The position numbers and the translations under genes were made by a program. DNA of 64,000 nucleotides from Nitrosomonas ureae (GTDB taxonomy: Bacteria > Pseudomonadota > Gammaproteobacteria > Burkholderiales > Nitrosomonadaceae): positions 2,046,001 to 2,110,000 of the forward strand of contig NZ_LT907782.1 in NCBI RefSeq assembly GCF_900206265.1, given 5' to 3'. How positions within the stretch are numbered: the first letter of the stretch is position 1; each line of letters starts with the position of its first letter. Positions 6,347-42,529 of this stretch are shown here, piece by piece. Below the pieces are notes generated by a model, which had not been told where the DNA came from, ran no database searches, and was given only the letters and a program-made list of their open reading frames with translations.

Positions 6347-6982
6347 ATGAACGATCATAACTCTAACAGCAATAACGTTAACGGACGATCCACCTCTGAA
6401 TTGCTGGAAAATGTCGTCGTTGTATATCGCAGTGATACCCTGACAGTCGGTGAGATCAAGAACACTTTGCACGAACGCGGTTTTGGCGTTTTACTAGCGA
6501 TTGCTGCATTGCCGCTTTGTCTTCCCGTACCGGTGCCACCGGGATACACAACTTTTTTTTCCATTCCATTGTTCATATTTTCGGTACAAATGATGGTGGG
6601 CATGCAGGCACCCTGGCTGCCCGCCTGGATAGAAAATAAAGAAATCAAACGCTCCAGCATGGAAAAACTGATTGCTAAGGCCAATCCCTGGCTCAAAAAA
6701 ATTGAACAACGCCTGCAACCGCGGCTGACTTATATCAGCGTACATACCTGGGAAAGAATTATTGGCGTTTTTACATTCGTTTTTGCTTTATCCATAGCCC
6801 TCCCTATTCCTCTGACTAATTTTCCGCCCGGCTGGGGAATACTCATTATGTCATTGGGATTACTCAGCAAAGATGGCATAACCATACTCATCGGCATGAT
6901 CGTCGGTACGATAGGCGTGGGTATTACCATGATAATCCTTACACTGCTCTGGATGGGCATGTCTCTGCCAGCATTTTATTAA
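6347..6982 (+). CDS. ExoD-family exopolysaccharide synthesis protein
   Basis: A 211-residue integral membrane protein. The N-terminal soluble part (residues 1-45, with LTVGEIKNTLHERGFGVLL) leads into a conserved hydrophobic block with LPLCLPVPVPPGYTTFFSIP, then an amphipathic linker and three further membrane helices including ALPIPLTNFPPGWGILIMSL. The repeated proline-rich P-hP-hP pattern is typical of the ExoD family, first linked to exopolysaccharide synthesis and alkaline tolerance in rhizobia. Molecular function is not known. It stands alone between the metal island and the guanidine operon. A GAAGGAAAC ribosome site precedes the start. Confidence 0.8.
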   Translation: MNDHNSNSNNVNGRSTSELLENVVVVYRSDTLTVGEIKNTLHERGFGVLLAIAALPLCLPVPVPPGYTTFFSIPLFIFSVQMMVGMQAPWLPAWIENKEIKRSSMEKLIAKANPWLKKIEQRLQPRLTYISVHTWERIIGVFTFVFALSIALPIPLTNFPPGWGILIMSLGLLSKDGITILIGMIVGTIGVGITMIILTLLWMGMSLPAFY

Positions 6983-7167
6983 TTAGTATGATGAAGTGAA
7001 TGAATGCGCTTTTTTCAATGCGCTAATCCCAATAAACAAAAAAGAGACTGATACCACATCATTGCTTTTTTCTGAATTCAAACTTAGAATGACGTCTGGT
7101 ATGTGCTTTTTTATGCCCATCAAATATTCGCAATTGCTGATATAGCCGCTAAAATGCACACTACCTA

Positions 7168-7272
7168 AATGAGAAACTAGGGTTCCGGCCAATGTAAGCA
7201 AGGTGACTGGTCCAAGAGTTTCCGGTCTCATGATAATGAGGCTCCACGGAGGGATAAAAGCCCGGGAGAATT
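7168..7272 (+). ncRNA. guanidine-I riboswitch (ykkC-yxkD class)
   Basis: The conserved blocks of the ykkC guanidine-I aptamer appear in order: CTAGGGTTCCG (7177-7187), GACTGGTCCAAGAG (7205-7218) and ACGGAGGGATAAAAGCCCGG (7246-7265) followed by GAGA. These are the most invariant parts of the family, and the RNA lies directly upstream of the permease, DUF1989, carboxylase and allophanate hydrolase genes, the classic context for this riboswitch. It should bind guanidinium and switch the operon on. No U-tract terminator follows; a small perfect hairpin at 7277-7293 and the AGGAGG ribosome site at 7321-7326 lie downstream, so control may act on translation, which is inference. Confidence 0.93.
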
Positions 7273-7276
7273 AGTC

Positions 7277-7293
7277 GTGTATCGTTGATACAC
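7277..7293 (+). promoter_or_regulatory. hairpin between riboswitch and permease (possible expression platform part)
   Basis: Perfect seven-base arms GTGTATC and GATACAC with a GTT loop sit five bases after the aptamer. There is no following T-run, so it is not a typical intrinsic terminator. It could belong to the switching structure; its role is not clear from sequence alone. Confidence 0.4.
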
Positions 7294-7332
7294 GGATCTT
7301 TCGGTATTATTTCTCGATCAAGGAGGCTTGTT

Positions 7333-8766
7333 ATGTTCAAAACTTCAAAATCAACCGATGAATCAACCCAGCCGGTGACGCATTCAATGCGCCCCAGCAT
7401 GAATATCTGGAATAGCTTTACGCTGGGCTTTGCAGTGGTATCGCCCATCGTTGGTCTGTATGCGATCATAGGTGTGCAGACTACTGTGACGGGTGGGGGC
7501 TGGTTTGCTGCACTAGTGATTTGTTTGTTAATGCAATTACTGGTGGCGACCGTGTACGCGGAATTGTCGTCGCAATTTCCGATTGCCGGGGGCGCGTACA
7601 AATGGGCGAGACAACTCTATGGCATCACAGCCGGTCATTATGCCGGGGTCATTTACGTCAGTTCCACGATTGCCATGCTAACCACCACAGCCTATGCAGG
7701 GGGCATTTGGTTTGCCGGTTTTTTTGGATCGGAAGGTGAAAGCGGTAGCGAGAAAGTTTTATGGGCAATAATTTTTCTGGCTCTGTGCACTCTGTTAAAT
7801 CTGGTACATGTCAATATTTTCAAGCTTGTTATCAAGCTCGGAGTTTATGCTGAGGTAGTCGGATCACTGGGTATTGCGATGCTGTTATTCTTGTTCTTCC
7901 GCCAACACTCTTTTGTGGAATTGTTTCAGCATTTAGGTACCGGCACTGCGCCCAGTAGCATCGCTGCTTTTCTGGCTGCGCTTGCGATTGCCGGTTGGGC
8001 ATTCATCGGTTTTGATGCCTGTTCGACTACCGCGGAAGAAACGCATCAGCCGGAACATGCAGTGCCACGAGCGATATTTTTTTCGCTCTGTACAGTCGGA
8101 ACCGTGGTGATTTTCAATTCAGCTTCATTGGTATTGGCGTTTGATCATGATGTTTTAACAAATAGCAGCGTGACCGCCGATCCGATTACACCGTTAATCG
8201 CCAGCCATTTTGGGGCCTGGATTGAGAAACCATTTCTGGCAATCGTCATGGTAGCGTTTTTGGCCTGCGGTGCATCAGTAGTCAAATACACTTCACGCAT
8301 TGTTTTTTCAATGGCGCGTGAGGGTAATTTACCCGGCATGCTCAATCGGGTCACGCCAGCCGGCACACCGCGCAATGCCATTCTCTTCACTATCTTGATG
8401 GCAAGTTGCGGGTTAATATTCGGACTTAACGACGATGCCGTAGCTACCATCATCGCATTTGGTACGGGCGGTCTTTATGCCATGTTTGCATTCACCACCG
8501 GAATCGCATTGTTTGCCAGATTGACTGGCCGCTGGAATCCGGATTTGGGGCAACTAAAGTTAGGAAAATGGGGATTGGTCATTAACAGCCTGGCATTTAC
8601 CTGGGCATTATTCGAGCTAATCAATATCGCCTGGCCGCGCCCTTATGCCATTGCAGCCGACGCCCCATGGTGGCAATTATGGGCCACGCCCCTGGTATTG
8701 GGTAGCATTTTGAGTGTTACTACAATCTATCTGTTTTTCGGTAAGTTATTGAGGAGCCGGTCATGA
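7333..8766 (+). CDS. APC-superfamily permease, probable guanidine importer
   Basis: A 477-residue protein with about 12 membrane helices of the amino acid-polyamine-organocation superfamily. Typical features are NIWNSFTLGFAVVSPIVGLY at the first helix, the GGWFAALVICLLMQLLVATV helix, and AGWAFIGFDACSTTAEETHQ in the middle helix. The ATG at 7333 follows an AAGGAGG ribosome site; an upstream TTG at 7285 in the same frame falls in the leader hairpin and is unlikely. The gene is the first after the guanidine riboswitch and its stop overlaps the next start (ATGA). Substrate is inferred from this context as guanidine; an amino acid or urea-like compound cannot be excluded. Confidence 0.85.
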   Translation: MFKTSKSTDESTQPVTHSMRPSMNIWNSFTLGFAVVSPIVGLYAIIGVQTTVTGGGWFAALVICLLMQLLVATVYAELSSQFPIAGGAYKWARQLYGITAGHYAGVIYVSSTIAMLTTTAYAGGIWFAGFFGSEGESGSEKVLWAIIFLALCTLLNLVHVNIFKLVIKLGVYAEVVGSLGIAMLLFLFFRQHSFVELFQHLGTGTAPSSIAAFLAALAIAGWAFIGFDACSTTAEETHQPEHAVPRAIFFSLCTVGTVVIFNSASLVLAFDHDVLTNSSVTADPITPLIASHFGAWIEKPFLAIVMVAFLACGASVVKYTSRIVFSMAREGNLPGMLNRVTPAGTPRNAILFTILMASCGLIFGLNDDAVATIIAFGTGGLYAMFAFTTGIALFARLTGRWNPDLGQLKLGKWGLVINSLAFTWALFELINIAWPRPYAIAADAPWWQLWATPLVLGSILSVTTIYLFFGKLLRSRS

Positions 8767-9488
8767 ATCATCAACCACAAATCATCTGGAAACAAACCGT
8801 GCCCGGCGGATGCCACTGGTCGGGAATTATCCGCCGCGGGACGACGCTGCGCTTAAGGGATGTTGAGGGAGGTGCAAATGCAGCGGTATTGTTTTTTAAC
8901 CAGGAAGAAAAGCTTGAACGCTACAACATGGCAGATACCCTAAAATCACAACATACCTTTCGTTTAACCAAGGGGCATGCCTGCCATTCGGACATGGGGC
9001 GGATTTTCTGTTGCATCACGGCGGATACTTCTGGATGGAATGATACGGTATGCGGCTTGAGCGATACTGATATGATTCAGAAGAAATACGGTACCGCGCG
9101 TTTCCAGGAGCATCGCAATCAAATGTTTCGTAGCGGCTTGGATGGCCTTCTGATCGAGCTGGGTAAGTGGGGATTGGGCATACGCGATATCGTAGCTAAC
9201 ATCAATTTTTTCAGTAAAGTCACGACAGATGCCCGGGGTGAGTTGGCATATCAGACTGACCATAGCAAGCCCGGTGATTACGTCGATTTAAGCTTTATAA
9301 TGAATACGCTTGTTGTGCTATCCACGGCACCCCATCCGTTAGATCCAAAAAATACCTATCAGCCTGGCATGGTCGACTTGGAACTGCTTAATACCCCCCC
9401 AGAGGCCATCAAGGAATGCCTGCATATCAGTGAAAATATCCGTGCATTACATAATGCGCAAAACTTTTATTGTGAAGGTGTGAAATGA
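8763..9488 (+). CDS. DUF1989 protein, urea-carboxylase-associated 1 / carboxyguanidine deiminase subunit
   Basis: A 241-residue member of the DUF1989 family. Conserved parts are [20 protein letters not shown] near residue 25, the metal-site region [20 protein letters not shown] near residue 78, and NINFFSKV near residue 145. Proteins of this family encoded beside urea/guanidine carboxylases have been shown to form a two-subunit carboxyguanidine deiminase (CgdA/CgdB), which removes one amino group from carboxyguanidine to give allophanate and ammonia. The start overlaps the permease stop and the stop overlaps the next DUF1989 gene, so the two subunits are translationally coupled. Confidence 0.85.
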
Positions 9489-10144
9489 ATACTTCTTATT
9501 TGCATACCAGCCTGCTCAATCCCGAACATGCCGTAATTAATGAAGTTTGCGCGGCCGGAGAACCGTGGGTCAAACAAGTCAAACAGGGGCAAACTTTTCG
9601 CATTGTCGATCTGGAAGGCAACCAGGCAGTCGATACTTTGTTCTACAACGCTCATAACCCTGAAGAACGTTATAGTGCTACTGACACCATTAACCGACAA
9701 AACAAGTTGTACCTGTCGACCGGCAGCAAACTTTATTCCAATCTTGGCAATATTATGCTCAGCATCACTGCGGATACTTGCGGACAGCATGATACGCTAG
9801 GCGGTGCTTGCTCTGCCGAAAGCAACACCGTGCGCTATGCGCCGGAAAAATTTCCAATGCACAGTTGCCGCGACAACTTTCTGCATGCGTTGGCGCATGA
9901 TCCGCTTTGCCGGGAATTAGGCATAAGCAAGCGCGATTTGCCCAGCAACATCAATTTTTTCATGAATGTTCCGGTTACGGAGGCCGGCGGTCTGGAGTTT
10001 GCCGATGGCGTTTCTGCGCCAGGAAAATATGTCGAGATGCATGCGGAAATGGATGTCATCGTATTGATTTCCAACTGTCCTCAGCTCAACAATCCGTGCA
10101 ATGCGTTTAATCCGACGCCGATCCGGCTGTTGATTTGGGATTAA
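9485..10144 (+). CDS. DUF1989 protein, urea-carboxylase-associated 2 / carboxyguanidine deiminase subunit
   Basis: The 219-residue partner of the preceding DUF1989 protein and its paralogue. Matching motifs are [19 protein letters not shown] (near residue 40), the [17 protein letters not shown] segment (about residue 95-112) expected to contribute metal ligands, and [13 protein letters not shown] (near residue 153). Together the two would convert carboxyguanidine made by the downstream carboxylase into allophanate. Four bases separate its stop from the carboxylase start. The older name, urea amidolyase-associated protein, reflects the former belief that the operon degrades urea. Confidence 0.85.
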
Positions 10145-10148
10145 TGCC

Positions 10149-13100
10149 ATGTTCAGCAAAGTACTTATCGCCAACCGCGGTGCAATCGCTTGCCGGATCA
10201 TCCGTACACTGCGCCGCATGCAAATACCGAGCGTGGCAGTTTATACTGAAGCCGATGCGTTATCCCGTCATGTTACCGAAGCGGATGAAGTTTACTGCAT
10301 TGGAGAGGGCGTTGCAGCGGAAAGCTATTTGCGCCCGGATAAGATCCTTCAGGTTGCAGAACAATCCGGCGCTCAAGCCATCCATCCCGGTTATGGATTC
10401 TTAAGCGAGAATGCGGAATTTGCTGCGCAGTGCGCTGCGCAGCAAATTTGCTTTATCGGCCCCACGCCGCAACAAATGCGCGCCTTTGGTCTGAAGCATA
10501 CTGCACGGGCCCTGGCGATGGAGAATCAGATACCGTTGTTACCCGGAACCGGCTTGCTGGAAAACCTGGATGCTGCCTGTCATCAGGCTAAACATATCGG
10601 TTATCCCGTTATGCTGAAAAGTACCGCCGGCGGCGGCGGTATCGGCATGCGCCTGTGTTGGAATCAAGACGAATTGATGGGCGCTTACGAATCCGTCAAG
10701 ACACTGGCACAAAACAATTTTAAGGATGCCGGTTTATTTTTGGAAAAATATGTCGACCAAGCGCGTCATATCGAGGTACAGATTTTCGGTGACGGCAAAG
10801 GCCAAGTCGTCGCCTTGGGCGAGCGCGATTGCTCCATGCAACGGCGCAATCAGAAAGTCATCGAGGAAACACCCGCTCCCAACCTTGCGCCACATCTGCG
10901 GCAGGCATTGCTGGATACCGCGGTACGCCTTGGCAAGGCCGTCAATTATCAATCCGCTGGCACCGTTGAATATATTTTTGATGCCGCCACGGGTGAATTT
11001 TATTTTCTCGAGGTTAACACGCGCCTACAGGTTGAACACGGCATAACCGAAGAAGCAACCGGTTTTGATCTGGTGGAATGGATGGTGCGGCAAGCTGCAG
11101 GTGATATGTCGTCGCTTGATTCCATTACCATTCAGCCTCGCGGAGTTTCCATTCAAGCCAGAGTGTATGCTGAGAATCCTGCAAAAGAATTTCAGCCTTC
11201 CAGTGGCACCCTGACCGCAGTGGAGTTTTCTACTGCCGCACGTGTCGAGACCTGGATTGAGCGCGGTATTGAAGTTTCCGCGTATTATGATCCGATGCTG
11301 GCCAAAATTATCGTCCACGCACCGGAGCGCGGGGAAGCCATCACCAAGCTGCTGGCTGCGCTGGAGAACACATCGCTATATGGGATTGAAACCAATCTCG
11401 CGTATCTGGAGCAAATACTGCACAACGCGGTATTCCGTAACGGACAATCAAACACGCAATTTCTCAACGGATTCCATTATCACCCGCATAGCATCAACGT
11501 TCTGAATGCCGGTGTGCAGACCATGATCCAGGATTATCCTGGACGTATTGGTTACTGGAATGTCGGCGTCCCGCCTTCCGGACCGATGGACAATCTGGCC
11601 TTTCGCCTGGCTAACCAATTAATCAATAATCCGGATGATAGTGCCGGACTGGAAATCACCCTCGCGGGCCCGACACTGGATTTTAATTGTGACAGTATCA
11701 TAGCCATTTGCGGTGCACCGATGGATGTATTGCTGGATGGCGAGCCGCTGCCGCAATGGCAATCCCATTTCATTAAAGCAGGCTCGCGTTTGCAATTTGG
11801 CAAAATCAAGCAAAGTGGCAGCCGGACTTATTTGGCCGTATACGGCGGCTTCCAAGTACCGGATTACCTTGGCAGTAAATCCACTTTTACGCTCGGACAA
11901 TTTGGCGGGCACGCCGGGCGTGTATTGCGTACCGGTGATGTACTTCATATTCCTCCGCTTCCGTCCCCTCACCCTCCTGTTTCACGGTATTTGCCGCACG
12001 TATTGATTCCGCAATATACCAACCGCTGGGAAATTGCAGTCCTGTATGGCCCTCATGGCGCACCCGACTTCTTCACTTCCACGGATATCGAACATTTTTT
12101 TGCCGCCGAATGGAAAGTACACCACAATTCCAGCCGCACCGGTGTGCGACTGATTGGCCCCAAACCACAATGGGCGCGTAGTGATGGCGGGGAAGCCGGC
12201 CTGCATCCTTCCAATATTCACGACAATGCTTATGCCATAGGCGCCGTGGATTTTACCGGAGACATGCCAATTATCCTGGGCCCGGATGGCCCCAGCCTGG
12301 GCGGTTTTGTTTGTCCGGCCACTATTATTCAGGCTGAGCTTTGGAAAATCGGACAACTCAAGCCTGGCGACAGCATCCGCTTCCGTCCGGTATCGATAGG
12401 GCAAGCATCTGCGTTGGAACAACAGCAGAATGAATTAATCAAGAATCTTCATAGGCATAACCCTGAACGGGCTCATTCCATTTCCGGAGAATTGGGAGAA
12501 CCTGTTTTACATCGTATTCCTCAGAGTACCGGGCAGATGCAGGTGACTTATCGTCAGTCCGGTGATAAATACCTGCTGATCGAGTACGGGCCGCCGATAC
12601 TTGATCTCAATTTGCGCTTCCGTGCTCATGCCTTAATGAATTGGTTGCAGCAACGTATCGATGACGGGCTTTGTGGCATCCTGGATCTGACACCCGGAAT
12701 CCGCTCCTTGCAAGTCCACTTTGAATCCTTGCAACTGTCGCGCGATGCATTGCTGGAGCTTCTGATCGCGGGCGAAAAACAATTACCTGCGATTGATGAT
12801 ATGGAGGTGCCGTCCCGCATCGTTCATCTTCCTTTATCCTGGAATGATATCGCGACACAACGGGCTATCGAAAAATACATGCAGTCAGTGCGCAATGATG
12901 CACCCTGGTGTCCGAGCAACATTGAATTTATCCGTCGTATTAACGGACTGGAACGCATTGAAGATGTTCAGAACATCGTTTTTGCCGCCAGTTATTTGGT
13001 TATGGGACTCGGGGATGTCTATTTGGGTGCACCTGTAGCTACTCCACTGGATCCCCGCCATCGTTTAGTGACTACCAAGTATAATCCAGCCCGCACCTGG

Positions 13101-13772
13101 ACACCTGAAAATGCGGTCGGTATTGGCGGCGCTTATTTATGCGTGTACGGTATGGAAGGGCCGGGCGGTTATCAGTTCGTCGGACGTACCATACCAATGT
13201 GGAACCGCTATCGCCAGACAGCAGATTTTATCGATGGAAAACCCTGGTTACTGCGTTTCTTTGATCAGATCCGGTTCTATCCGGTGAGTGAAGATGAATT
13301 GCTCAAGTTGCGCAAGGATTTTATTAGCGGACATTTTAAACTGCGTATCGAAGAAACTGTTTTAAACCTCAGCCAATACAATATCTTCCTGCAACAGCAA
13401 GCTGCCAGTATTAACGCTTTCAAAACCACGCAACAAGCGGCATTTGAAGCCGAGCGAAGGCACTGGGAAGCCAGCAATCTATCCCAATATGTCAATGAAG
13501 ATATGTTGGATGAAGCTGATGCGCAAAGCGAGCTGGACTTGCCGGAAGGTGCGCAGGCGATCAGCGCTCAAGTGACTGGTACCGTCTGGAAGGTGTTGGC
13601 CAAAGAAGGTGAGCGTATTGAAGCGGGTAAGCCCGTTATCGTAATAGAGTCGATGAAAATGGAATTCGCAGTAGATTCACCGGTTACGGGCACAATACGA
13701 CAGTTATTCTGCAAACAGGGAGGATACGTATCTGCCGGCCAGGCGCTTTTCGTCATTCAGGAAGAAAAATGA
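10149..13772 (+). CDS. biotin-dependent guanidine/urea carboxylase
   Basis: A full-length 1207-residue carboxylase. It has a biotin carboxylase domain (about 1-445; ATP-grasp glycine loop [12 protein letters not shown] at 157-168), a carboxyltransferase domain built from KipA-like (from [20 protein letters not shown], about 455) and KipI-like (about 780-1000) parts, and a C-terminal biotinyl domain with ESMKME, placing biotin on Lys1170. The enzyme uses ATP and bicarbonate to carboxylate its substrate. Family members beside DUF1989 genes under guanidine riboswitches prefer guanidine over urea, so guanidine carboxylase is the better call here; urea carboxylase is the usual database label. The segment [13 protein letters not shown] (about 686-698) lies in the substrate region and should be compared with characterised enzymes. 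Stop overlaps the allophanate hydrolase start. Confidence 0.92.
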
Positions 13773-15592
13773 CACGAAGGAAGCTTTTCCCGCTGGGTGA
13801 CATCGCATCTTTGCAGCAATGTTATGCGAGTGGCGAATTCTCACCGACTCAATTGGTTGAAGCAATTCACGGCGAAATTCAGAATGATCCCGATCATGTC
13901 TGGATCTCTACACTTCCGCTGGAATCATTGAAAGATTATGCCCGTAAAGTGGAAGCCGCAGATATGGCATCGCTCCCATTGTATGGCATACCTTTCGCCA
14001 TAAAAGACAATATAGATTTAGCGGAATTACCAACCACGGCAGCTTGCCCGGCCTTTGCATATATACCTTCATGTAGCGCAACTGTCGTAAAGAAATTGAT
14101 TAATGCAGGCGCAATTCCTATCGGCAAAACCAATCTTGACCAATTCGCCACCGGACTAAACGGTACACGATCTCCTTATGGTGCTTGTCGGAACACATTT
14201 GATCCTGCTTATATCTCCGGAGGCTCAAGTTCAGGTTCGGCTGTCGCCGTGGCCAAAGGACAGGTATGTTTTAGCCTCGGCACCGATACTGCGGGTTCCG
14301 GCAGAGTTCCCGCCGCTTTTAATAACTTGATCGGATATAAACCCACAAAAGGCTGGCTCTCGACACAGGGCATGGTACCCGCCTGCCGTTCTCTTGATAC
14401 GGTATCCATTTTCGCTTTTACTCCGATCGATGCGGCACATATCCTAGAGACTTGTGTCGACTACGACGCAGCAGATATCTATTCCAGGAAAAGAAAAGAA
14501 CACGGTTTCAATTTTGGCACCGCTCTCCATTTTCGTTTTGGCATTCCACGCAAGCAACATCTTAAATTTTTTGATAATCATGATAGCGAACGGTTATTTA
14601 ATGAAACCATAGCACGCCTACAAGCGCTGGGCGGAGAAGCTGTCGAGGTTGACTTTGAACCCTTTCTTGAAGCCGCCCGCCTTCTTTACGAAGGCCCTTG
14701 GGTAGCTGAACGTTATGCAGCAATTCAATCATTTTTCGAGCTGCATGGCGATCAAATCATTGCACCGGTGCATGAAATCATTGCCACTGCGAAACATCGC
14801 TCAGCGGCCGATGTGTTCAATGGTTTTTATCAATTACGCCGCATCAAACAACAGGCAGATCAGATTTGGACGCACGTTGATTGTTTATTAACACCCACCG
14901 CAGGAACGATCTACTCCATTCAGGCCATGCAGCGGGATCCTATCCGCCTCAATACCAATCTGGGTTATTATACCAATTTCATGAATCTGCTTGACTATGC
15001 GGCGATAGCCGTTCCTGCTGGCTTTCAGAGTAACGGACTACCGTTTGGCATAACGCTGGCAGCGCCCGCTCACCACGATCATCCATTACTGCATCTTGCC
15101 CATCGTTTACAGCAGGCCCAATCACTCTCTCTAGGCGCTACGGGTATTGCATTGCGTCAGGATACTTATTTTCCTGCCGTCCCCGGATCGGGACAGGTAC
15201 AGATAGCTGTTTGTGGCGCCCATTTATCCGGCTTGCCATTGAATGGACAATTAACCAGCCGTCGAGGCCGATTGGTGACAAGTACCACCACTTCCCCTGA
15301 CTACAGGCTCTACGCATTACCCGGCAATCCTCCGCAACGTCCTGGGTTAATTCGGGTCAACAAAAATGAGCAGGGGGTTCCGATTGAGGTGGAAGTTTGG
15401 GAGTTACCGATGCTCGAATTAGGAAGTTTTGTAGCCGGCATTCCCGCACCCCTCGGAATCGGCACCATTACTTTGGCGAACGGTGAAACGCTGTTGGGTT
15501 TCGTCTGCGAACGCTATGCCGTCAAGAATACAGTAGACATCAGTCAATTTGGCGGATGGCGCAACTACCTGAAACAACGGGATATCTCATAA
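13769..15592 (+). CDS. atzF: allophanate hydrolase
   Basis: A 607-residue amidase-signature enzyme that hydrolyses allophanate to ammonia and carbon dioxide, the last step of the operon pathway. The Ser-Ser-Lys triad is visible: Lys79 in AIKDN, the cis-Ser region GGSSSGSA (151-158), and the nucleophile Ser177 in TDTAGSGR. The C-terminal domain (about 470-607, with [18 protein letters not shown] and FGGWRNYL at the end) is the allophanate-hydrolase-specific AtzF C-domain. The ATGA overlap with the carboxylase implies coupled translation. The symbol atzF is used for the family; this copy is part of a guanidine or urea pathway, not atrazine degradation. Confidence 0.92.
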
Positions 15593-16868: not shown

Positions 16869-17570
16869 ATGAATTCCAGTATGAGAACTTTTGCATCTTT
16901 TCCACCGGTGGAAAATGCGTTGAGCGAGCCCAATGGGTTGCTGGCTATTGGCGGGGATCTTACTTCGCATCGCTTGCTTGAGGCTTACAGCAAGGGCATT
17001 TTTCCCTGGTTCAATGAAGATCAGCCGATTCTTTGGTGGAGTCCGGATCCTCGCATGGTGCTGTTTCCGCATCACTTGAAAATCTCTCGTTCACTGCGTA
17101 AGGCTGTTAAGAAAACCCACTATAAAATCTGCACTGACTGCAACTTCACTCAGGTTATGCTAGCGTGTGCAGCACCGCGCGAAGGTCAGTCAGGTACCTG
17201 GATACACCCACAAATGATCGCTGCTTATACTGCGCTCCATGAAATGGGATTAGCGCATTGTGTGGAAACCTGGATTGATGGTGAACTTGCTGGGGGACTG
17301 TATGGGGTCGCCTTGGGTAAGGTATTCTTTGGCGAGTCGATGTTTTCGAGGGTTCAGGATGCGTCAAAAATTGCCCTGGTTCATCTGGTAAAACAGTTAC
17401 AATTCTGGCAGTTTGGTCTGATAGATTGCCAGGTTAAAACCCATCATCTGGCATCCTTGGGTGCGCAAGAAATTTCCAGGGCAGAATTTAGTCAAAAATT
17501 GAATTGTCTAATTACAGCGGGATTTGAATCCGGCAGTAAATGGAACTTTGAACGCAGTTTGATTGAATAG
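16869..17570 (+). CDS. aat: leucyl/phenylalanyl-tRNA--protein transferase
   Basis: A 233-residue enzyme that attaches Leu or Phe from aminoacyl-tRNA to proteins with N-terminal Arg or Lys, marking them for ClpAP in the N-degron pathway. Family blocks are all present: FPPVENALSEPNGLLAIGGD, YSKGIFPWFNEDQPILWWSP, GTWIHPQMIAAY, and GLYGVALGKVFFGESMFSR. Length matches the family. The gene is nine bases from the second transferase (bpt), so both tagging enzymes come from one transcript. Confidence 0.95.
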   Translation: MNSSMRTFASFPPVENALSEPNGLLAIGGDLTSHRLLEAYSKGIFPWFNEDQPILWWSPDPRMVLFPHHLKISRSLRKAVKKTHYKICTDCNFTQVMLACAAPREGQSGTWIHPQMIAAYTALHEMGLAHCVETWIDGELAGGLYGVALGKVFFGESMFSRVQDASKIALVHLVKQLQFWQFGLIDCQVKTHHLASLGAQEISRAEFSQKLNCLITAGFESGSKWNFERSLIE

Positions 17571-17579
17571 AGTTTACCC

Positions 17580-18287
17580 GTGCCTAAATTTCACACCACC
17601 AACCCCTATTCCTGCAGTTATTTGCCTGATAGATTGGCATGCTCAGAAATCGCAACACCAGAACATCTGATTGATACAAAAGCCTATGGAAAGCTAGTTC
17701 AGGCAGGCTTTCGTCGCAGCGGACATTACATCTATCGCCCCTGTTGTGAACATTGCCAGGCTTGTCAATCAGTGCGCATTAATGTCAAAACTTTTACTTC
17801 CAAGCGTGCTCAACGACGCGCCTGGAAACTGCATCAGCATTTAGTAGCCACGCAGCATCCATTGCATTACAAACCGGAACACTATGCACTTTATCAGCGC
17901 TATCAATCCAAGCGCCACTTGGGTGGCGGCATGGATAATGACTGTCGCGAGCAATATCACAATTTCTTACTGCAAAGCTACGTGAATTCCAAATTGGTAG
18001 AGTTCCACGAGGCGAATCAGTTACGCATGATCAGTATTATTGACATCATCCCTGATGGTATTTCATCGGTATATACCTTTTTTGATGCTGATATCGCGCC
18101 TGCAAGTTTTGGTACTTACAATATCCTGTGGCAGATTGAGCAATGTCGACAATTGGGTTTGGATTATCTTTATCTCGGCTATTGGATCAAAGAAAATCAG
18201 AAAATGCGCTATAAAGCCAATTTCCAACCCCTCGAAGTTTTGATTAATGGTCACTGGCAATTGCTGGTCAGCGGCAATATTTCTTGA
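17580..18287 (+). CDS. bpt: aspartate/glutamate leucyltransferase (Ate1-like)
   Basis: A 235-residue member of the ATE family that in bacteria usually transfers Leu to N-terminal Asp or Glu. It shows the N-terminal Cys cluster [13 protein letters not shown] (about 54-66), and the acyltransferase core with [10 protein letters not shown] and [19 protein letters not shown]. The start is GTG at 17580, just after the upstream gene. It is sometimes annotated arginyl-tRNA--protein transferase; the bacterial Bpt branch is the likelier reading. Confidence 0.92.
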
Positions 18288-18328
18288 AATTCATTTAAAT
18301 CGGTCATTGCTTCGGGATAAAATTCTGC

Positions 18329-19366
18329 ATGTTCTATACTCTGCTTCGTCCGCTGCTTTTTAAATTGGATCCGGAATCCGCTCACAGAATTACATTCAGG
18401 GTAATTGGGCGGATCAATCGGCTAGGCTTATTAAAGCGCGTTTCCATTCCCTGTCGACCGATAAACGTAATGGGACTTACGTTTCCTAATCCTGTCGGAT
18501 TGGCCGCCGGCTTGGATAAGAACGGCGAGCATCTGGATGCCCTTGCTGCGATGGGATTTGGTTTTATTGAAATTGGCACGGTCACGCCAAGACCCCAGCC
18601 CGGCAACCCAATACCCCGCATTTTCCGGGTGCCCGAAGCAAACGCGATCATCAATCGCATGGGTTTTAATAATCAGGGTGTCGAGCAGCTGGTTGAAAAC
18701 ATCCAACGCTCGAATTACCATGGCATACTGGGCATCAATCTTGGCAAGAATTTTTCCACACCGCTTGAAAAAGCGATCGATGATTATTTGACCGGCTTAC
18801 AGAAAGTTTATTGTCACGCCAGTTACGTGACAATCAATATTTCATCACCCAATACAAAAGATTTACGGCAATTGCAAGCTGCCGATGCTCTAGATCAGTT
18901 GTTGGGCGGCTTAAAGTCCGAGCAAGCGAAATTAGCGCAAATTCATGGAAAATATGTACCAATGGTGGTAAAAATAGCGCCCGATCTTGATGGAAAACAA
19001 ATCGAATCGATTGCTGCGCTACTGCTGAAACATCGCATAGATGGGGTGATTGCCACCAATACGACAATTTCACGAAGGGGCATTGAACATCTGAAACTCG
19101 CACAAGAAAGTGGAGGGCTCAGTGGTGCTCCGTTGACTCAGAACGCTACAGCAGTAATTCAGCAATTGCATCATTTTTTGCAAGGCGCTATTCCAATCAT
19201 CGGGGTCGGCGGCATTTTATCGCCAGATGATGCACAAGACAAATTAAATTCCGGAGCCATCCTGATTCAGTTATATACCGGTTTAATATATCATGGCCCC
19301 GGCTTGATCAAAGAAATCGCCAAACAGATTTGTGTGGATTCAAAAAATAACCATTCGCAACAATGA
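18329..19366 (+). CDS. pyrD: dihydroorotate dehydrogenase (quinone), class 2
   Basis: A 345-residue FMN enzyme of pyrimidine synthesis that oxidises dihydroorotate and passes electrons to quinone at the inner membrane. The N-terminal helices ([19 protein letters not shown]) that distinguish class 2 are present, followed by [16 protein letters not shown], the catalytic-base Ser in [14 protein letters not shown], and the phosphate-binding [11 protein letters not shown]. Its stop overlaps the next start (ATGA), which puts an iron-sulfur protein in the same transcript. Confidence 0.96.
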
Positions 19367-20046
19367 GTCAATTGCTGATAGAAAAGATAGACGCAATCTT
19401 GCCGCAAACCCAATGCAAAAAATGTGGTTTTGCTGGCTGCAGGCCCTATGCAGAAGCTATCGTAGAAGGCGGTGCAGACATCAATCAATGTCCTCCCGGG
19501 GGACAACAAGGCATTCAAAAAATTGCTGAGTTACTGGATATTCCGGCTAAACCGCTCAATACGATGCATGGTTATCCAAGATCCTATCAAGTTGTTGCCT
19601 GGATAGATGAAAATTTGTGTATTGGCTGCACATTCTGCATTCAGTCTTGCCCTGTCGATGCAATTGTCGGTGCGGCCAAGCAAATGCATACAGTGATCGC
19701 AGACGAGTGCACAGGTTGCGATTTGTGTGTTACACCGTGTCCGATGGATTGCATCAGCATGATTCCGGTTAATCAGAAAGTAACGGATTGGGCATGCTCA
19801 TCTATAGATGCCGTGAAAAAACAAACTGCAAACAAAGCGCGCTCGCGCTACCAATTTCGCCAGCAACGAATTGCTCATGAGAAGCGGACTGATCTCAAAA
19901 CACACACCAAAGAATTTATCCAACCGCCACAAACTCAGATGAGTCCTGAGGTGCGCAAACAAGCGATTATTACAGCCGCTCTCAAGCGTGCAGCGGCAAT
20001 ACGGCCCCAAACGGAAAACAAACCAGATTCCATAAAAAATAAATGA
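19363..20046 (+). CDS. RnfB/RsxB-like iron-sulfur electron transfer protein lacking the membrane anchor
   Basis: A 227-residue protein with an N-terminal four-Cys cluster [16 protein letters not shown] then PPGG, and two 4Fe-4S ferredoxin motifs, [12 protein letters not shown] (about 86-97) and [12 protein letters not shown] (about 116-127). The typical RsxB protein has a membrane-anchoring helix before the first cluster; here the protein starts directly at [17 protein letters not shown], so it looks soluble. No other rnf/rsx gene is nearby. The C-terminal tail (150-227) is basic and low in complexity. The neighbouring nth encodes an iron-sulfur DNA repair enzyme; the partner of this ferredoxin is unknown. 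Confidence 0.85.
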
Positions 20047-20675
20047 ATGCCGCCAAACGCCATGAGATTTTTGCTTGCTTAAAAACAACCAACCCTAATC
20101 CGACCACTGAACTGGAATATCGCACACCTTTCGAGTTACTTATTGCAGTGATACTTTCTGCTCAAGCTACAGACAAAAGCGTTAATCTCGCAACACAAAA
20201 ATTATTTCCCAAAGCCCATACACCAGAGGAAATTCTTGCTTTAGGAGAAGCGGGTTTAACAGGATTTATCCAAAGAATTGGGTTATATAAAACCAAAGCA
20301 AAAAATATCTTGGCCACCTGCCAATTGTTAATACAACAACATCGGAGTGAAGTGCCACGTACGCGGGAACTGCTCGAGCAATTACCCGGTGTCGGGCGAA
20401 AGACCGCCAATGTCATTTTGAATACCGCTTTTGGTGAACCAACAATCGCTGTAGATACTCATATTTTCAGGGTTGCCAATCGCACAGGCCTTGCGACTGG
20501 AAAAAATGTTTTAGAAGTGGAATTGAAACTGCTTAAGACAGTGCCAAAAGAATTTCGTCAGGATGCGCACCATTGGTTGATTCTTCATGGCAGATACGTT
20601 TGTAAAGCAAGAAAACCAATATGCTCAGCATGCAAAATAAATCATCTGTGTGAGTTCAAGGATAAAAATATTTAA
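20043..20675 (+). CDS. nth: endonuclease III
   Basis: A 210-residue DNA glycosylase/AP lyase that removes oxidised pyrimidines. It carries the helix-hairpin-helix [16 protein letters not shown] with the catalytic Lys, the catalytic Asp in VDTHIFRV, and the C-terminal 4Fe-4S loop with spacing C-x6-C-x2-C-x5-C ([17 protein letters not shown]). Start overlaps the RnfB-like gene. Length is normal for the family. Confidence 0.96.
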
Positions 20676-41444: not shown

Positions 41445-42152
41445 ATGGCAAATAAAGAGCATATTTCTAAGCAATTTGATGCTGATCTTGAAGAAGTTCG
41501 TACACGCGTCTTGCAGATGGGTGGTTTCGTTGAAGAGCAAATCGAGTATGCAATAGAGGCATTGACGAGTGGTAACGAAGAGCTTATCGATCAGGTCATT
41601 ACACGTGATCATCGTGTCAACGCCATGGAAGTATCGATTGATGAAATCTGTAACCAGATCATTGCGCGTCGCCAACCAACCGCCAGTGATTTACGTATGA
41701 TCATGATGGTAATTAAAACGATTACTGATCTAGAACGCATCGGTGACGAGGCGGCGAAAATTGCTCGGATGGCGAAGTTGATATACTCATCTGATCGTAT
41801 GCACATTCCGCGCTTCAATGAAATCAAACATGTCGCCAGTATTGCAATGGACATGTTGCATAAAGCGCTTGATTCCTTTGCTCGATTGGATTTAAATGCA
41901 GCCGCACAAATTGTCAGACAAGATGAGTTTGTAGATGAGGAGTTTCGTTCTATCTTGCGTCAATTAATTACGTTTATGATGGAAGATCCAAGAAAAATCT
42001 CTACGTGCCTGGAAATAGTATTTATCGCCAAAGCAATAGAACGTATTGGAGATCATGCAAAAAACATGTCAGAGTATGTTGTTTACATGGTAAAAGGCAA
42101 AGATGTGCGCCATGTAACGGCTGACCAAATTGAACAGGAAATCAGAGAATAA
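41445..42152 (+). CDS. phoU: phosphate signalling regulator PhoU
   Basis: A 235-residue all-helical protein with two PhoU repeats; each has the E-x3-D-x-VIxxDxxVNxxE-like metal site (ITRDHRVNAMEVSIDE, about 51-66) and DLERIGDEAAKIAR in the first half, ERIGDHAKNMSEYV in the second. It normally restrains the PhoR/PhoB response with the Pst transporter. No pst or pho genes are adjacent; the copy stands next to rpiA. Confidence 0.95.
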   Translation: MANKEHISKQFDADLEEVRTRVLQMGGFVEEQIEYAIEALTSGNEELIDQVITRDHRVNAMEVSIDEICNQIIARRQPTASDLRMIMMVIKTITDLERIGDEAAKIARMAKLIYSSDRMHIPRFNEIKHVASIAMDMLHKALDSFARLDLNAAAQIVRQDEFVDEEFRSILRQLITFMMEDPRKISTCLEIVFIAKAIERIGDHAKNMSEYVVYMVKGKDVRHVTADQIEQEIRE

Positions 42153-42529
42153 TATGAATTTTTTTCTTGTGTCAGATAGCGGTGCTGTATTTTATGATCC
42201 CGATATACGAAGTATTTCATTAACATGTAGTAATTCAGATTTGATCAGACAGTAGGTCTTGCTAAAGGGTGGGCTTACTACCCAGTTTGATAAAGGTGCG
42301 AATCTTTATCAACCAAGCGTGAAAGCGCAAAGGAGTAATCCCATAAGTAGTGTCCAACACAATGTCATCACACACGAGATTGGTTTGCTTAACCTGGAAG
42401 CCGAGATTGGCAATGTATCCCGCGCCTCAAAGTGATGGGTTTTTCTTGCGATACTTTCTGAAATCTTTGCAAAATCAAGAAAAATTCCTATTTTAAAGTG
42501 TGCTGTCAAAAATGAGTCCATTGATTAAG
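42153..42529. other. decayed intergenic sequence after phoU
   Basis: No convincing gene is present. It contains a perfect hairpin, TTGATAAAG (42287-42295) with CTTTATCAA (42304-42312), near a smaller TGGG/CCCA pair, and short open frames without ribosome sites. It adjoins transposase debris and may be the remnant of another element. Confidence 0.4.

Follow-up and report, generated by a model that had tools for sequence, protein, structure and literature searches.

Guanidine is a stable nitrogen compound that is excreted in urine and used in industry, and its degradation by the carboxylase route proceeds through carboxylation, deimination and allophanate hydrolysis (PMC11410670). In that 2024 Nature study, guanidine-degradation genes were reported in 135 of 145 genomes of betaproteobacterial ammonia-oxidising bacteria (AOB), exclusively of the carboxylase type. 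Most ammonia oxidisers with guanidine-degradation genes were reported to carry a permease of the APC superfamily in that region, and the legend of Figure 1 of the study presents the riboswitch-controlled locus of Nitrosospira multiformis (PMC11410670). A floodplain study reports no guanidine genes in its nitrifier genomes (PMC12625717). Here, a locus of this kind is described from 64,000 nucleotides of Nitrosomonas ureae DNA (assembly GCF_900206265.1, contig NZ_LT907782.1, positions 2,046,001 to 2,110,000, forward strand), hereafter the window, in whose numbering all coordinates are given. A guanidine-I riboswitch aptamer precedes five coupled genes, and the locus is very probably a guanidine-responsive degradation operon of a Nitrosomonas ammonia oxidiser, of which we infer both the substrate and the induction from sequence. 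The arrangement is already published as a kind and the window is a member of the published set; what is added here is a prediction of how the switch works.

An Rfam covariance search places the guanidine-I (ykkC subtype 1) aptamer RF00442 at 7166-7270 of the forward strand, at full model length and with 83.5 bits against a gathering cut-off of 63 (E 2e-13). The first-pass annotation of this DNA had seen aptamer blocks upstream of a permease gene and had asked for this very search; the blocks CTAGGGTTCCG, CTGGTCCAAGAG and GGGATAAAAGCCCGG all lie inside the match. It is the one match above cut-off in the host genome, the other (16 bits) being noise. In the host genus, 73 of 85 genomes have the aptamer, as against 22 of 274 genomes drawn from the class, the host being among the 22, and the match is therefore not a matter of chance. 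Bacillus subtilis, whose ykkC riboswitch targets an exporter, served as a control genome and matches the guanidine-I model. Just 5' of the aptamer lies a promoter-like site, TTCGCA-17-TAAAAT (7127..7155, +), which is a consensus match only (9 of 12 positions); four such sites were found on both strands of 6900-7400, where 1.0 is expected.

The operon is headed by a gene for an APC-superfamily permease of 477 amino acids (7333..8766, +; Pfam PF13520, 132 bits), presumed to be the guanidine importer, which scores just 149 bits against the urea-carboxylase-system permease model TIGR03428 (cut-off 740). Its start is most likely the ATG at 7333, behind the Shine-Dalgarno (SD) sequence AAGGAGG at 7320-7326; compared with this ATG, the TTG at 7285 given by a mechanical list of open reading frames is disfavoured. 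The two following genes encode DUF1989 proteins (PF09347), the putative subunits of a carboxyguanidine deiminase: UAAP1 of 241 amino acids (8763..9488, +; TIGR03425, 322 bits, cut-off 206) and UAAP2 of 219 (9485..10144, +; TIGR03424, 339 bits, cut-off 285), which are the only two DUF1989 hits in the host genome. They are followed by the carboxylase of 1207 amino acids (10149..13772, +; TIGR02712, 1942 bits, cut-off 1304) and by an allophanate hydrolase of 607 amino acids with an amidase and a C-terminal domain (13769..15592, +; TIGR02713, 797 bits, cut-off 511; PF01425 and PF21986). The TIGR and Pfam matches thus agree with the gene set proposed earlier for this stretch, as do the coordinates with its claim of tight coupling, three junctions overlapping by four bases and one having a gap of four. 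Gene identities rest on these family matches; in the published work, the deiminase clade is defined by a tree (PMC11410670).

Guanidine carboxylases are told apart from urea carboxylases by aspartates at the positions of Kluyveromyces lactis residues 1330 and 1584, corresponding to 701 and 956 of TIGR02712 (PMC11410670). The window carboxylase matches TIGR02712 over positions 1-1201 of 1201 and has biotin carboxylase, CT_A_B, CT_C_D and biotinyl domains in the order of urea carboxylases, together with the biotin-site lysine K1170; NCBIfam names the family urea carboxylase, which is the one point in favour of an enzyme acting mainly on urea in a urea amidolyase pathway. At the signature positions it carries D701, opposite N1330 of the K. 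lactis urea amidolyase in the alignment, and D956. These residues, the two DUF1989 subunits and the guanidine-I aptamer in the same operon, and a separate urease elsewhere in the host genome all speak against urea as the main substrate, which we regard as highly improbable. An alignment of 72 riboswitch-linked carboxylases takes in the window protein, two proteins that lack a biotin carboxylase domain, and three copies that are cut or broken; all 72 rows have D701 and 71 have D956, the one exception being a truncated row. Judged by its signature residues, guanidine rather than urea is thus supported as the substrate, in keeping with the pathway that the first-pass annotation had outlined.

In the proposed pathway, guanidine would enter through the APC permease and would be converted into carboxyguanidine by the ATP-dependent biotin carboxylase. 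The two DUF1989 subunits would then deiminate carboxyguanidine to allophanate and ammonia, and allophanate hydrolase would free two further ammonia and CO2. The released ammonia would be assimilated, and its oxidation alongside ambient ammonium is possible. The host genome, a single contig of 3.06 Mb, holds three hits to the ammonia monooxygenase (AMO) family (PF02461) of 399 bits each, a urease, and a single ureohydrolase (PF00491) hit that matches agmatinase models. The nearest named carboxylase, that of Nitrosomonas ureae Nm13, is 95% identical, and the nearest named records are Nitrosomonas. Its genes place the host in Nitrosomonas, close to N. ureae, and mark it as an ammonia oxidiser, so that the earlier guess of an ammonia-oxidising host was right; this assignment rests on the AMO genes and the lineage.

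A further claim, that guanidine would be both a nitrogen and an energy source, stands in part. When given 50 uM guanidine alone for two weeks, none of five AOB strains bearing the pathway used it, and three of the five used some in the presence of ammonium (PMC11410670). A nitrogen role is thus likely, and a role as sole energy source doubtful, that part of the claim being probably too strong. The same result, together with the reported inhibition of N. europaea by 1 mM guanidine (PMC11410670), would also fit an operon that serves detoxification instead of nitrogen or energy supply, as would the many relatives without allophanate hydrolase, some also without urease, in which all three ammonia need not be released. 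We consider detoxification unlikely, given that the operon holds a presumed importer and a complete set of genes down to ammonia, that none of its five genes matches an exporter family in the TIGR and Pfam scans, and that the host has a urease as well.

The part of the locus that adds to the published picture is the leader between the aptamer and the permease. In its minimum-free-energy (MFE) fold, most of P1 is kept, and P2 and P3 are replaced by a long hairpin that encloses a small one. The 3' strand of P2, AUAAUGAGGCUCC (7233..7245, +), pairs in this fold with the ribosome-binding site (RBS) and start codon at 7322-7334 through 12 pairs and one mismatch, so that the SD sequence and ATG (7320..7335, +) are predicted to be sequestered. 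Inside this helix, the aptamer 3' end CCGGGAGA (7262..7269, +) pairs with UCUUUCGG (7297..7304, +), and the small hairpin CGUGUAUC-GUU-GAUACACG (7276..7294, +) occupies the interval between aptamer and RBS. Without ligand, the 3' half of the aptamer would thus refold into the long hairpin and the P2 3' strand would mask the SD sequence and the ATG of the permease. In the presence of guanidine, formation of P2 and P3 during transcription would keep the start site accessible, and expression of the coupled genes would follow.

Conservation of the three helices was followed in aligned Nitrosomonas leaders, namely the 66 (out of 83) whose RBS lies 40-70 bases 3' of the aptamer. The helix between the P2 3' strand and the RBS is paired in 94.5% of cells, with changes on both sides in four of the seven pairs counted, and the small hairpin in 91.9%, with both-side changes in all eight of its pairs. 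The helix between the aptamer 3' end and 7297-7304 (six pairs) is paired in 94.2% of cells and shows no double changes (0 of 6). For the three helices jointly, the observed value was reached by none of 500 shuffles on four of five measures and by one of 500 on the fifth, and sliding the strands by one to three columns lowered the pairing from 93.5% to 23-45%. Furthermore, the P2/RBS duplexes formed within a leader average -13.2 kcal/mol, compared to -11.5 (standard deviation 0.23) when the strands are swapped between sequences, a value reached in none of 2000 swaps. This swap test comprised 68 distinct pairs from 81 of the 83 leaders, two leaders without a site having been dropped, and retained doubtful RBS picks in several leaders (e.g. 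G013, G068, G026 and some europaea-type leaders; G and L labels are those of our genomes and loci). The same complementarity between P2 and RBS as in Nitrosomonas is seen in three leaders of Nitrosospira and Nitrosovibrio (L025, L029, L032), which came from a set of 32 loci, 16 of which gave an aptamer by pattern (the other 13 being Nitrosomonas relatives).

Several observations weigh against translational control of this kind. Kinship among the leaders inflates both the shuffle and the swap tests. The predicted OFF fold lies about 16 kcal/mol below the aptamer-constrained fold (-53.0 versus -36.9), and the computed opening of the SD sequence is partial: in the window, its unpaired probability rises from 0.21 to 0.48 under the aptamer constraint, and across the 66 leaders the mean rises from 0.19 to 0.35 with the aptamer left out, exceeding 0.5 in just 13. 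Given an OFF fold of such stability and so partial an opening, switching would have to be kinetic and cotranscriptional. Weak terminator candidates are present in 23 of the 83 leaders, 13 of them starting at most 60 bases from the aptamer, although the window is not among them; those of G039 and G065, with a stem of nine followed by six or seven T in eight, look plausible. The site scanner found no terminator-like site in window positions 6900-7400, where shuffles yield 0.5, so that the zero says little on its own.

These candidates bear on the textbook mode, in which guanidine prevents an intrinsic transcription terminator and the RBS pairing is incidental. Guanidine-I is usually described as a transcriptional ON switch (PMC12186494), as it also is in the study of the ammonia oxidisers (PMC11410670), and the window hairpin of CCGGGAGA and UCUUUCGG is followed by UAUUAUUU, in which six of eight bases are U. 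Yet the scan of the window gave no site, 60 of the 83 leaders have no candidate and the positions of the 23 vary, many relatives have no U-rich stretch 3' of the hairpin (e.g. TAAACCC), and the P2/RBS pairing co-varies. Terminator control in the host lineage is accordingly the less likely mode, and we would give it little more than a one-in-five standing. RBS pairing is the better supported expression platform, and the leaders of the genus suggest a better fit to translation control than to the transcription control usual for guanidine-I, with exceptions. That the switch of the host lineage controls translation is, on these models, moderately probable. In 21 other genomes of the class, which supplied 29 leaders, two terminators were found by script and three more by eye (L132, L134 and L151, with CCCGGG and then a T run); leaders without a clear terminator thus occur elsewhere in the class too, and the Nitrosomonas leaders would be no more than a variant and would not make up a new kind. 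For the Nitrosomonas lineage, this mechanism is a testable addition to the 2024 picture.

The start site that the switch is predicted to cover does not always belong to a pathway gene. In 18 of the 83 leaders, the RBS and AUG covered by the switch are kept 56-65 bases 3' of the aptamer and open a frame of 17-90 codons, and the first pathway gene (permease, carboxylase or allophanate hydrolase) follows 222-383 bases 3' of the aptamer. These leaders belong to N. communis-type genomes, to the carboxylase side of europaea-type genomes and to a few others (they include L057, L059, L073, L085, L091, L092, L101 and L104). Seven permease-side europaea-type leaders also exceed 200 bases and were not counted among the 18, their first RBS-like site lying elsewhere. 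A TTG that the script chose as a leader start in the window and in some of its near relatives, five or six bases 5' of the permease ATG, was disregarded. In the N. communis-type leaders, the leader frame stays open for 63-90 codons, compared to 5-34 in the other two frames, a contrast not seen in the europaea-type leaders; the three Nitrosospira and Nitrosovibrio leaders also open frames of 55-62 codons. No coding constraint on a leader peptide was detected in eight N. communis-type leaders, where substitutions are about even over the three codon positions. It is a tentative and rather doubtful proposal that guanidine-I is a translational gate in the Nitrosomonadaceae, which in certain lineages, among them the N. 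communis type and the europaea type, would gate a short, unconserved leader frame and not an enzyme gene. If so, guanidine would let ribosomes cover the leader, thereby shielding the transcript from Rho or decay.

Layout and completeness of the pathway vary across the genus. All five genes stand 3' of 29 of the 83 aptamer sites, including the window and G004, whose allophanate hydrolase is in two pieces. The first four genes follow 36 sites (two with a carboxylase that has no biotin carboxylase domain), the carboxylase alone seven, permease and deiminase only five, and allophanate hydrolase alone one; the remaining five sites are cut by contig ends or have no pathway genes. In the 85 genomes, the carboxylase is found above cut-off in 78, allophanate hydrolase in 34 (partial in two) and urease in 50. 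Sixty genomes are near-complete (completeness of 95% or more, contamination of 5% or less); the carboxylase occurs in 59 of them and an allophanate hydrolase above cut-off in 26. Of the 33 carboxylase-bearing genomes without one, 18 have urease and 15 do not (e.g. G068, G006 and G084); the 15 include G004 with its split gene and G040 with a urease fragment below cut-off, and some are in many contigs, in which genes may be missed. Genomes assembled into one or two contigs (G026, G027, G036, G067 and G068) also show loss of allophanate hydrolase. No association between urease and allophanate hydrolase was found in the 78 carboxylase genomes (23/9 versus 26/20, Fisher p 0.23). In operons without allophanate hydrolase, no substitute beside the carboxylase was recognised among the clusters of downstream frames that occur more than once; eight such operons have a downstream frame that we take, from its sequence, to resemble thiopurine methyltransferase. 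Weak TIGR02713 hits of about 160-215 bits occur in most genomes and in 13 of 14 control genomes, and look like GatA-type amidases, as we infer.

The absence of allophanate hydrolase from 33 of 59 genomes, and of urease too from 15, may have some bearing on why the tested strains used guanidine poorly, although all five strains are reported to have the whole gene set, save for one that lacks urease (PMC11410670). At least 16 genomes that have no full allophanate hydrolase encode stand-alone proteins resembling its C-terminal part only, in contexts that vary; the seven inspected (L123-L129, e.g. G068:C1:1776267-1776671) are 124-172 amino acids long.

Second aptamers were observed as well. Seven europaea/eutropha-type Nitrosomonas (G006, G024, G041, G009, G025, G007 and G008; loci L046, L054+L089, L055+L088, L062, L064, L065 and L066) have two guanidine-I aptamers, one 5' of the permease and deiminase genes and one 5' of the carboxylase, the two standing back to back in five of the seven and on separate contigs in G024 and G041. 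One of these 14 aptamers lies below the Rfam cut-off (G009, 56.6 bits). The first of the two operons also codes for another carboxylase-like protein, which has carboxyltransferase and biotin domains and lacks a biotin carboxylase domain; D701, D956 and the biotin-site lysine are kept in all seven copies of it. Allophanate hydrolase and urease are both absent above cut-off from these seven genomes. In G044, a second aptamer (L052, G044:C1:1990097-1990202) stands 5' of allophanate hydrolase and no other pathway gene; it lies about 98 kb away from the main operon's aptamer. Finally, in G034 a second aptamer with changed conserved bases (L120, G034:C15:981-1147) is followed by a 22-codon frame, with no pathway gene in the 980 bases covered, and resembles a relic of a second copy of the operon that has been lost.

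Elsewhere in the window, positions 16869-20675 (+), 3' of the operon, hold neighbouring genes for leucyl/phenylalanyl-tRNA-protein transferase and arginyltransferase, and then come pyrD, an rnfB-like gene and nth. The small proteobacterial RNA psRNA2 (RF02349) gives a strong Rfam match of 111 bits at 42132-42341 on the reverse strand.

Nitrifiers help to decide the fate of guanidine nitrogen, and one more sequenced Nitrosomonas that has the whole pathway is in line with the 2024 study. The operons of betaproteobacterial AOB, such as that of Nitrosospira multiformis, likewise combine a guanidine-I riboswitch with an APC permease, carboxyguanidine deiminase, guanidine carboxylase and allophanate hydrolase (PMC11410670); no difference in gene content was found between these and the window operon, and the available part of that paper makes no mention of translational switching. 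The comammox bacterium Nitrospira inopinata has a riboswitch of the same class and a permease of the same type, and ammonia from guanidine feeds its nitrification, as it would in the host, but it uses a guanidinase where the host has the ATP-costing carboxylase pathway (PMC11410670). Pseudomonas syringae DC3000 shares the carboxylase pathway, with a guanidine ABC transporter near the genes in place of the APC permease of the host (PMC11410670). Bacillus subtilis ykkC shares the aptamer class, which acts there through transcription (PMC12186494), whereas in the window it stands before a degradation operon with predicted control of translation.

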